Positions 26,801 through 32,800 of a stretch of DNA of 64,000 bases are shown in pieces. Numbering within the stretch: the stretch's first letter is position 1; every line of letters starts with the position of its first letter. Where the stretch lies: assembly GCA_030141605.1 (NCBI GenBank), contig JAQGDQ010000534.1, positions 1 to 64,000 on the forward strand. Reading direction: 5' to 3'. A program made the translations under genes and the position numbers. Source of the DNA: Tubiluchus corallicola. Lineage: Eukaryota; Priapulida; Priapulimorpha; Priapulimorphida; Tubiluchidae. Below the pieces are notes generated by a model that was given only the letters and a program-made list of their open reading frames with translations, was not told the origin of the DNA and did no database searches.

Positions 26801-29800
26801 TGTATTGGTAAAGTGGTAAAATATTTAAAAGAATTAAGCTAGCATCAAAGTGTTGAAAATGATGTCTTCGCTATGTTTTTAATATGGTTCTGTCATTTGT
26901 CTTATACTGTGGTGTTGGTGTGTTTTGTAGAAGATTCAAGTATCAGCATATGTGTGCTTGCATAGCAAAATCGTCTATAAGTTGGCAATTAAGCTTTTCT
27001 GGTTATTCACATATCCTGAATCTCCATTTCATGAGGATCATTTTGATACCAAGCTCATCGTCTTTGTTATTTCTAAGCTGAGATAATCCACATTGAAGTT
27101 GAGGTGCAGGCTGTGCACTGAAGAACGTAATCTTGAGAAAATCACTGTTAAAGTCAGCCATTGTTTTTTATCGCATTTTTACAAAACACTTAGCAACCAT
27201 ACAAGACTGTGTTTACTATGGATTTTACAAGAGCAAATTGAAGTTATGTTTAAATCCAGTAGATGGGTCTTCCTGACAAAGTCTGGGCTTGACAACAGAG
27301 AAAACCCGAAGCAGAATAAGTGCTTCCACGAGTTACTATCGGAGTTTGAATATACAAGTTTTTTTACAATTGCATTACTAGTTTCTAGCCAGAAAAGTGA
27401 GTTTGTGGTTATAAAATTAGATTTTTACTATTTTTTGAACATTTTCTTAATAACTTGATGCTAAAATATAAAACTCCAATATATTTAGCATTTGTTTTTA
27501 TAAACAACAAAAAATTTACATCTGACCAAATTTTTAGTGCATTTTACTTTGAAGCACCATTACGCAGTTTTAGCTATGGACGGTTTTGGTTTGCAAGAAC
27601 ACATAACATATTTCTCTTAGAGTGCTTTCCGATTAAGCAACTGACATGATTATTTTTGTCGTCTGCTGTTGCTTTAGTTGGACACACTCCCATCAGTTGT
27701 AGTTGCATTTTTTTGCTCGGTCGCATTCAACAGTCTGAACGCACATTATAAACTCATAGTAAATCAGGAGCAACTTAGATTTGTGCCGACTATAAATGGC
27801 GAATAATGCCTATGTGGACCATTTTTACAAGTTCCTTAAATGACACGAAAAGGCCTAGTTAAAGCTAGTCTCAGAACATTTTCGCTGAAGAATTATAACG
27901 GTACAATTATAAGAATTATAATTATTAAGAATTATTTCAAATAGATATATATTTTCCACAATATTTTATTGTATTACATTGCTGCCATCAGTAAATTTTA
28001 CATTTTTACAGAGCTGTAGTGAGAGCATTACATCAGTACAAGGAGGCGTCGTCGGTTCCGCTGGCTATGATGAAATTGTTCTCTCAACATACGCCGGTAA
28101 TTAGAATGCTTTTTTAAAATAAACATTGCTACACTCTAGACAAATGTGACTGGTCAACATTTTCAATCCTGTGTCCTTGTTGTATAGACGGAATGTAAAG
28201 TTTACGAAAATCAGAAATGCTTAAAGGACAAGAAAGGGCGTACCTGAAGTAGGTTTCAGAAAAATTGCCTTAAAAATTATATTACTTTATAGCAATTTTA
28301 TGCATATATCGTACTCGCGTTAAGAGGTATTTTTGTTTGTTTTCATTTTAAATCTCCCACAATACTATTCCGACGGCGCCATTACATGACGTCATATACG
28401 CACAGCGCAAATCAGGGAAAAAAAAGTAAATGTTGAATTATGTCCCAAAAAACTTCCCATGCAAAGTTATATTACTTAGCATTTCACTCACCTGCTAGAA
28501 AGACTTGTGTAACTAGAAAAGAAAATTATTAATTATTTAAATTGTTTTCACCAATTGGTAAAAGACTCACCCTCCAGGGTGCACCACTCACTAACCAAAA
28601 ACGTATTTTCAATCTTATTAACAACATACAATAATTTTAAATCTCACTTAGTTAGTGACGTGTACGCTACGAATGCTGTGATTATTTTTTCAAACTTTAC
28701 TCAACTTGTTTCAAATGACCTGTCATCAAAATGGCTTCATCTAACGGTCACCGCTTGAGTTTAAATTTACATGTTTTATACAGCGTTACGACCGACGTTA
28801 GCCACGCATACGAAAAGGTAGTATGTAAGTGATATAAAATTTCAAGACGAATTTTTTAAGCTTTATGTAAGCGGAGGGTTTTCTTGTGCTTTAACTAAAC
28901 TTTCTTCTGAGCTAAAAAATTGAACCTGACACACAGTAAAAAAGATGACAAACATATTATAACGATGAGGCAGACAAAATTTAACAGTTAAAAGTGAAAT
29001 TTCATAGTAAACTATGGCATTTTACAAGTCATTACAACATAGAATACCAAAGTGCTCTCTTAGTTCCTGTAATAAATTTTTTTATTTCCGTCAGTAGAGC
29101 TTCATTAATAGATACTGTTAAGGCATCCGAACCTTATATAAGTAATTTCATTCCTTCCACTGCAGTTAAGCTATAAAAGTTTAAAAAACACTGAAGTAAA
29201 GAAAATACATTATCAATATAATTGATTTTAAGATCTGTGAAGCCTTTTATATGTAAAAACAAATCTTTAATACCTTGTGTCCACTTTTTTAATAGCTAGT
29301 ATGCGAAGAAAAATGCTGACAATATTTCGATATACCATTTTAGTCTTAATTGTGTAGGAAATATACTATCTTTGTCCTCTGAGCCTTGGCTTCATGAAAG
29401 TAACATTGAGGGCGTGGCTCCGAAAGAGTTGCAGCGGGAGATGTTTGGCAAAATTGCAATGCTGAGGTACAGAGCACTGCGTTACTGTTCTTTTTTGCAG
29501 TGATCTGCCTTTGTTATTTTCATACTTCATATGTGATGGTTTACTTAGTTGACAAGCTACGTTTGCAGTGATGTGAGCAAGATTTTCATAAACACGTTGA
29601 GTTCAGAGTCAGTAGATGTTTTTCCAGGATAACAAGCAAACTGATGTCTTCTGTTCGTATGTTGAGGGTAGCTCCAATAATGTATCCTAGCATTCACTTA
29701 ATGAGATTGCAACTTGGTATCCAGAATTAAAAAAAAATTTCCTGACGTGTGTTTGCTCTTGAAATGTGGGATTTTAATCTGATTAGACTGAAGGTTTTTT

Positions 29801-32800
29801 TTCTATCTAAAGGAAACGTCCCAAAAAGCATAATTATTAGAAATTAGTGTTTTGTTGATCTTCACTGTAGTTCCTTTTAGAGATCAAATAAAAGCAAAGA
29901 ACGATTGATTAAAATATCATGCTTGTTCACAATAATATTACAAAGCTAGACGTACATATTGATTGCAGTAATAGTACAAAATAAAGGTATGAGGCCTCAT
30001 TGATTTTACGATAATAATTGTTAGTATCTATTTAATCTATTCACAGTTATATACTATATAAGTACTTTAAAGGACCTATATAAGGATAACCTCTATGCAC
30101 AGTTACATACTATATAAGTGCTTTAGAGGAGCTCTATATAAGGATAACCTCTATGTACAGTTATATACTATATAAGTACTTTAAAGGACCTATATAAGGA
30201 TAACCTCTATGTGCAGTTACGTACTATATAAGTACTTCAGAGGACCTCTATATAAGGATAACCTCTGTGTACAGTTATATACTATATAAGTACTTTATAG
30301 GACCTATATAAGGATAACCTCTATGCACAGTTACGTACTGTATAAGTACTTTGGTGGACCTGTATCAGCATTTTACGCACCAGACAGGTTTTTCCCGGGA
30401 ACTATTCCCTGCCTGCACTTTTATAACATCATATGCATTTAGGTAATTACATAATTAATAAACTGATGACAGTAGTGATTCACTTGGCTTTAAAGATATT
30501 CATTATACAATTAAGCTACAGAAGACTACGTTCTTATTATATGCAGAAGACTCATAATTAACCTTGACAAATTACAGTAGAATAAATCTAGTTTTAACTT
30601 TATATATATATATATATATATATATATATATATATATATATATATATATATATATTGAATTACAATAATAATACAAAATAAAGCTATAAAGGTTAGATTA
30701 GACGTCACTTTGATTTACGATAAGCATTGTTAGTATCTTTAGTATCTATATAATCTGTGCATAGTTATGTACCATATAAGTACTTTAGAGGACCTCTATA
30801 AGGTCTTCTATATATATATATATATATAATAATTGTCCAATGGGAAATACTGTTCCCACCCTTGGAAACTTCCATTAATCACTGGATGACGTAAACAGAC
30901 TATGCCATACAGTTGGTTTGCATGAAGTTTCATAATCACTTAGCTTTCTGTTCTCAAACATTTCAATATTCTCACAATTTTCTGGCACTGGTTTGCTGTG
31001 ATTTTGCACGAGTGACTTTAATCTATACAGGTTGGGTGTTTGGTTTAACAACGGAGAAGCAGGTACAGGAGTCGGGTCCGGGAAAAGAGATTCAGCTGAG
31101 TCATAAATCGTTAGAGAAAATTAGTCATCTGAGGTTTGCTACGTACAAATCATTTTAATCCTAGTTACAGTAAACTACGTGTAACTCAAGCCGGCGTAAC
31201 TCGAATTCTTGCGTATCTCAAACAGACCTCGTGGAAAAAGTTTTTCCCTTTACCAAACATCGTGTAACTCGAACCGAATTCCTGGTACAATAAGCCTTTT
31301 CACAGCTTCCATGTGCACACGCGTAGTTGCTGCTGGTAAAACGTTAAATGTAGCACAGTAGCGCATGTTAACTACAACCGTCACGTGACTTGTGGGTAAA
31401 GCAAAGCCTCTGCCACATCAGTTCAGTAACTTCTATTGTTTTTGCATGGGCTTTTCTTAATTATGCATTAGTCTATGCCTACAGTAATTTGCTAGCAGCA
31501 TCTTGCTTGGGAATAAAAAAAATGAATTAGGTAAGGTTCTAGTTAGCTGTTAAAACTGTTGGTATTACAATAGCATGAGCTGCGAGGCATTATCAAGTGT
31601 TCACAAATGCATTGTCTGGTACACTTAAGCTTTGACCATTCACAATCACTATCAATCACTGGAACTGTGAAAAGGCCTTAAGAATCTGGCTGAATTTATC
31701 TCACCTATCTCAAACAGTCTCCCAAGCGAGAAATCTTACTTGAAAGTGTGCACCACATTACATTATTAACTGCTAGTTTCAGCAAAAATGCTAAGATTTC
31801 TTGTATTACCTTAGCATAACGCTGCACACAACATGGCTTAACGAGTGTGATTTAATGTAGATCACAATATTATTATTGCCAAATTCTATTAACCATGCTA
31901 CAATAGAGGTGGACCAGTCATTTTACTTTTGATTACTCATAAAAATGTTGGTTGATATTTGATTAGAGGTGCAATTAGTTTTTTTCACAGTTTGTAGTGT
32001 TACTAGTGTATTGTTCGATGTTGATAAGTGACTCAATCTTGTTCTCAACATTGTCTAACTCAAACTTTTGCATAACCCATTTTCCGGTCCCGAGGTGTTC
32101 GAGTTATACGTAGTTTACTGTTTATTGCAAGTGTCCTGAAAATTACTTCTACCACTTCATCTGTGGTTGGTATACCTGAATTTAGAAACTTTTGTATGAC
32201 AGTGCATGTCTCGTGTGCTGATAAGTGATCTGTGGCAGTGCATGTGTCGTGTGCTGATAAGTGATCTGTGGCAGTGCATGTGTCGTGTGCTGATGAGTGA
32301 TCTGTGGCAGTGCGTGTGTCGTGTGCTGATAAGAGATCTGTGGCAGTGCATGTGTCGTGTGCTGATAAGTGATCTGTGGCAGTGCGTGTGTCGTGTGCTG
32401 ATAAGTGATCTGTGGCAGTGCGTGTGTCGTGTGCTGATAAGTGATCTGTGGCAGTGCGTGTGTCGTGTGCTGATAAGTGATCTGTGGCAGTGCATGTGTC
32501 GTGTGCTGATAAGTGATCTGTGCTATCGATCGATGCTGCATTAATGATGGAGTGCGATTTCTTGTTGGCTGTGTGATTGGTGGATCGACTATAATTGCAC
32601 AATTGATCAATTACAATTGTTTGTGCCATCGATCAACTGTGATATCTTGTTGTAACAACTGATTACTGTCATTTGTACTATGAATCGATTCCGGTGGTTT
32701 GCATTTTAAATTTTGTTTGTTACTTGCTTTTTAATAACAGTTTACTACTTTACTCCTGGTCAAATTATTATTTGTGTCGGCAATAACAAGCCTTTATACT

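Follow-up and report, generated by a model that had tools for sequence, protein, structure and literature searches.

We analysed a window of 64,000 nucleotides from the priapulid Tubiluchus corallicola (contig JAQGDQ010000534.1, positions 1 to 64,000 of the forward strand), which carries a BBS7 gene with two versions of its tenth coding exon. A tblastn search with human BBS7 as the query located the gene on the + strand, and the exon limits were set from splice sites read in the window sequence. The spliced model has 18 coding exons (14827..43206), and its product with the canonical exon 10 is 719 residues long, has no internal stops and is matched over residues 1-717 to bovine BBS7 (PDB identifier 6vbu, chain 7) with 1039.5 bits. 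Judged by its sequence, the gene is a complete BBS7, encoding a subunit of the BBSome.

Exon 9 (28012..28096) ends in phase 1 and exon 11 (33475..33667), which carries on the BBS2-pairing helix, is entered in phase 2. The canonical exon 10 (31031..31133, + strand), of 103 nucleotides and 35 encoded residues including the split end codons, joins the two, and upstream of it, in the adjoining intron, lies the alternative exon 10 (29358..29466, + strand), of 109 nucleotides and, counted likewise, 37 residues. With the alternative exon the product is 721 residues long, again with no internal stops, while models containing both versions or none have a shifted or broken frame, so that only one exon 10 fits a message. 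An earlier note, made from the letters of this stretch, had given the flanking exon limits 28096 and 33475 and the spans 29358-29466 and 31031-31133, all of which the spliced models reproduce exactly; they also bear out its statements that both exons are entered in phase 1, left in phase 2 and free of stops, and that only one of them can be used because a message with both or with neither would be out of frame. When the 343.5 Mb assembly was searched at the DNA level, the alternative exon was present at a single place.

The introns of the gene hold several further features. One repeat has three partial copies in them (25538-25806, 31409-31678 and 33282-33416), two of which end just before acceptors, namely those of exon 8 at 25822 and exon 11 at 33475, and minisatellites lie around exons 10 and 11 at 30036-30365, 32200-32522 and 34130-34470, with periods of 56 or 114, 36 and 41 bases, respectively. 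A search for inverted repeats that could enforce exclusive splicing found no docking structure among the 25 of 84 pairs listed, 24 of which come from or lie beside AT repeats. The last intron (42404-43072) appears to be of the AT-AC type, starting with ATATCCTTT and ending with AC after a TTCCTTAGC-like branch site; by the U12 consensus it looks like a minor-spliceosome intron, and AT-AC joining gives the protein sequence LYGMITD, the same as in cattle. This intron also contains a CT repeat with a period of 2 bp and about 155 copies (42646-42950). Downstream of the gene on the + strand, a 592-residue open frame (56763-58541) consists mostly of mucin-like repeats rich in Thr, Ser and Pro (TTPEQTFTTPESSYASSGSSY), and two open frames (54724-55464 and 59952-60647) with very similar peptides (TINTIARL.MKATEAILFITNGIFYLALLTAF...) are probably copies of a tandemly duplicated gene; none of the three has a match in Pfam.

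Homology and probable maintenance of the upstream exon

Because an exon must match over its whole length, we scored whole segments globally, from end to end, with a profile that was built from the BBS7 of other animals and comprised 99 exon-10 sequences; seven rows, among them both window versions and the double-exon and truncated models, had been left out of it. The alternative exon 10 scores 15.3 against a background with a mean of -29.2 and a standard deviation of 6.9. The background from the window comprised 722 open segments on both strands that lie between AG and GT and run from phase 1 to phase 2; once 15 of these had been set aside (the copy and the rows F_30* and F_31*, which include variants of the canonical exon), none of the remaining 707 reaches 15.3, the best being -2.6. 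The same holds for all 1,236 segments taken from other contigs of this genome (113 kb; best 2.3), and shuffling the alternative peptide gives such a score once in 5,000 trials. Scores similar to that of the copy are obtained by divergent BBS7 exons (15.2, 16.9 and 19.1, the first two being members of the profile). In a control in which copies of all 16 internal BBS7 exons were searched for among 2,108 candidates, an outlier was found for exon 10 only, where the copy scores 33 and the next best candidate 8, and the scores for the other exons do not exceed 18. The alignment of the two exon peptides pointed out in the earlier note is thus supported as homology, and the alternative exon 10 is very probably a real exon copy.

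The same scores bear on the explanation that the alternative exon is an unrelated open stretch between splice-like sites, which resembles exon 10 by chance. Local scoring with a profile hidden Markov model (HMM) is compatible with such an explanation, as the copy obtains just 4.1 bits with the general profile (4.1 with that of the molluscan A version and 0.4 with that of the molluscan B version, both described below), and with the general profile 4.1-7.1 bits are also obtained by unrelated segments elsewhere in the window, at two places; local HMM scoring was therefore dropped as proof of homology. The end-to-end score, however, lies outside those of 1,943 chance segments and 2,108 internal-exon candidates, and the copy sits in the intron adjoining its match, which is moreover the exon that bivalve isoforms swap. 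We regard a chance resemblance as highly improbable.

Splice matrices built from the gene's own U2-type introns, with the copy excluded, give the alternative donor and acceptor scores of 7.62 and 6.94. Both are inside the range of the gene's real sites, in agreement with the earlier description of them as good, and they rank 6 of 381 donors and 9 of 299 acceptors in the stretch 28097-33474. The proportion of guanine and cytosine (GC) in the alternative exon is 0.459, compared to 0.336 to 0.521 in the BBS7 exons and 0.316 and 0.309 in the flanking introns. Over 33 codons, the identity of the alternative to the canonical exon is 0.48, 0.64 and 0.36 at the first, second and third codon positions, respectively, and third positions being the least alike is the order expected under protein constraint. 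When neutral evolution of the canonical exon was simulated to the same divergence as that of the copy, with substitutions only, 329 of 3,000 runs remained open, 109 were as similar as the copy and 19 were both.

A different explanation is that exon 10 was duplicated long ago and that the upstream copy is by now a relic in decay, open by luck and no longer spliced in. Along with the local HMM scores given above, a number of observations weigh against a maintained exon. The Trp at position 2 of exon 10 is present in 144 of the 152 listed BBS7 relatives (different proteins from two protein searches, the second represented by its best 120 of 718 matches, in a database clustered at 90% identity, where isoforms can be hidden) and is replaced by Asn in the alternative exon. 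No exon close to the copy is seen among the 61 proteins matched by the alternative isoform, and the nearest relative, P0001, and Priapulus caudatus have a canonical-type exon 10 only in their database proteins. Among 1,213 intron windows, 5.5% have a GC value at least as high as 0.459. The loss of the near-invariant Trp, the weak local HMM score and the lack of copy-like exons among the 61 proteins are what a relic would lead one to expect, as is the strong divergence of the copy, which forms the longest branch (4.92) in the exon tree discussed below, and the 329 open runs indicate that luck could have kept its frame open. Against a relic stand the mere 19 runs that are both open and equally similar, the least conserved third codon positions, the high ranks of both splice sites and a peptide that still matches the family profile from end to end. 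The codon-position, splice and simulation results speak for an exon that is maintained rather than for a relic, which we consider unlikely, and it is likely, as far as these features can tell, that the two copies of exon 10 are used in a mutually exclusive manner.

A comparable exon pair in bivalve gene models and possible origins of the copy

Mutually exclusive exons that arise by tandem exon duplication are a known class (PMC9741552, PMC5740500). The window pair resembles this class in that its members are homologous neighbours, encode the same position of one protein and break the frame when both or neither are included; it differs in that it is known from genomic sequence alone and in that BBS7 was not found as an example in the literature searched. 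No paper describing an exon 10 pair of BBS7 was found in the open-licence literature on BBS7 or BBSome splicing, isoforms, exon duplication, priapulids and mussels; in the portions available, BBS7 appears as a table row in PMC7917623 and is not named in PMC13216214. The mechanism class is a known one, and the pair is probably real and used, on what appears to be the ARL6-docking linker.

The earlier note had known of no such BBS7 exon pair in other animals, a statement that does not hold, as five bivalves have isoforms in the databases whose differences are limited to this exon. Two molluscan versions, termed A and B, were assigned by the similarity of exon 10 and are known from the proteins of database gene models alone. 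The A version is present in 18 of the 152 listed relatives, all of which are molluscs (11 species), and the B version is present in other molluscs among the relatives listed, for example Batillaria, Lottia, Crassostrea and Mizuhopecten; the listed oyster-type rows of lgn source likewise carry B. Isoforms of equal length with A or B from the same species are found in Mytilus californianus (X5/X4), M. trossulus (X3/X4), M. edulis (X4/X5), M. galloprovincialis (X4/X5) and Ostrea edulis (X4/X3), and in each of these pairs the 19 to 24 differences all occur at residues 313-346, the isoforms being otherwise identical. Dreissena also has both versions, in two models that differ elsewhere too. One M. 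edulis model contains both versions, and one Bulinus model apparently joins parts of two versions.

The swapped segment is the same as that in the window, beginning with the Gly that follows TYA and ending with the last Arg or Lys ahead of the residues of the next exon, and the differences at 313-346, observed in proteins only, fall inside the exon-10 segment. In the double model of M. edulis, A is ahead of B, so that an upstream and downstream order exists there too. The window copy is, however, much more divergent than the bivalve versions. A and B differ at 19-24 of 34 positions and both keep the Trp, which the window copy does not have. The window pair would appear to be common, at least in form, to bivalve database models.

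Among the 37 proteins of a BBS7 tree, that of the window is placed with Priapulus caudatus and P0001 with a support of 100/100, and within this group P. caudatus and P0001 form the closer pair (99/95), though the Priapulus row is flagged for an unusual letter composition. This single-gene placement points to a priapulid or one of its near relatives. The exon tree (40 rows, 35 columns) has no branch that combines molluscan A with molluscan B. Molluscan B is grouped with annelid, nemertean and brachiopod exons (98/93), and the A side includes three arthropod exons with long branches. The window copy is placed beside the canonical window exon, and both window exons, P0001 and Priapulus are grouped with a support of 57/87. 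Constraining the copy to the A exons costs 1.36 log units (P value of the approximately unbiased test, p-AU, 0.435, over the 35 columns), so that this grouping is not rejected. The mean pairwise score of the copy is 25.8 to A exons versus 31.9 to other BBS7 exons, and its best single pairwise matches are vertebrate sequences. Orthology of the copy with molluscan A is thus not favoured by the pairwise scores, and the 35-column tree allows either placement. A search aimed at A-type exons in other phyla returned a single candidate, which was its own query.

These observations would fit either a pair of ancient protostome origin or duplications of this exon on more than one occasion. A more specific proposal is that the pair was present before ecdysozoans and lophotrochozoans diverged and that many lineages lost it later, in which case it would be an ancient splicing switch for the linker that meets ARL6, and two functionally distinct BBSomes, one docking ARL6 in the ancestral manner and one with an altered or absent dock, would have coexisted in protostome cilia from the early animals onwards; we consider this proposal improbable.

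The ARL6-docking linker and possible consequences of its proposed exchange

Three elements are encoded by exon 10, namely the last propeller strand, the disordered linker and the first part of the BBS2-pairing helix. The earlier note had described the segment as joining the propeller to the coiled coil that contacts other BBSome subunits, which stands and can be sharpened to these three elements, with the addition that the linker contacts ARL6. Two structural reports describe this contact. In the bovine BBSome:ARL6:GTP complex, the BBS7 loop of residues 320-335, which leads from the propeller to the dimerisation helix, binds to the edge of the central sheet of ARL6 as seen by cryo-electron microscopy, a contact that may stabilise the complex; when ARL6 is missing, the loop is disordered (PMC7018513). 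According to the second report, the loop between propeller and coiled coil contacts the back of ARL6, and this contact is argued to be independent of the nucleotide state (PMC7311171).

The canonical window exon aligns without gaps to bovine BBS7 residues 312-346, including the linker 320-335. The cattle proteins among the matches (6vbu_7 and P0138) show one linker sequence only, unlike the window gene, whose alternative linker is two residues longer than the canonical linker and is without its GPG. As the ARL6-binding residues 320-335 correspond to the middle of exon 10, a swap of this exon would exchange the docking linker. The A and B forms of Mytilus, as modelled by AlphaFold, both have a strand at 311-316 and a helix at 333-364, and linker positions with a predicted local distance difference test score (pLDDT) below 50 are 322-331 in A and 321-331 in B. 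Since the limits of strand and helix are equal in these models, the exon swap probably leaves the fold as it is and alters the linker.

A profile of deuterostome and cnidarian exons (20 sequences) gives the canonical window exon 45.4 bits and the alternative exon 5.6 bits, the lowest of 34 exons tested. Low scores are also obtained by Priapulus (8.4) and Ornithodoros (10.8), each with a single exon, so that a low profile score by itself does not demonstrate the loss of a dock. The idea that one molluscan exon is ancestral and the other is not was dropped, as the A and B scores overlap on this profile and the contrast is clear in the window only.

The pair could also be real while ARL6 is untouched, with the swap tuning BBS2 pairing, cargo binding or protein stability instead. 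Besides the linker, exon 10 does encode the final propeller strand and the beginning of the helix for BBS2 pairing, and in the structural reports both the propeller and the helix of BBS7 are linked to the binding of the SMO tail (PMC7311171) and the ARL6 contact is worded as one that may stabilise the complex (PMC7018513). The bivalve models, however, share the limits of strand and helix, leaving the linker free to vary, and we see a role outside ARL6 docking as rather unlikely, though less so than a relic. That the exon swap alters ARL6 docking is itself a tentative proposal, which we hold to be possible but just short of probable; one form would dock ARL6 as usual and the other differently or not at all.

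Based on the above, we propose that a tandem duplication gave rise to two copies of exon 10 in BBS7, which would be spliced in a mutually exclusive manner. Each message would contain one copy, and products with both or neither would presumably be removed or be non-functional. The swap would exchange the ARL6-docking linker, the canonical version being the conserved one and the alternative version the divergent and longer one, and the choice of linker may tune, by cell type or stage, the recruitment of the BBSome to the ciliary membrane or the position of its cargo-binding head there. Taken as a whole, a tandem-duplicated, mutually exclusive exon pair that gives BBSomes with different ARL6 docking is the explanation we moderately favour, and two flavours of the BBSome are plausible.

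The BBSome is usually treated as one complex. If the explanation is true, a single gene would in some animals give rise to BBSomes that differ in membrane docking. The exon pair would then be a natural experiment on the role of the linker, in which the versions are directly comparable, and a useful one because the structural papers give this role only as a 'may' (PMC7018513, PMC7311171).

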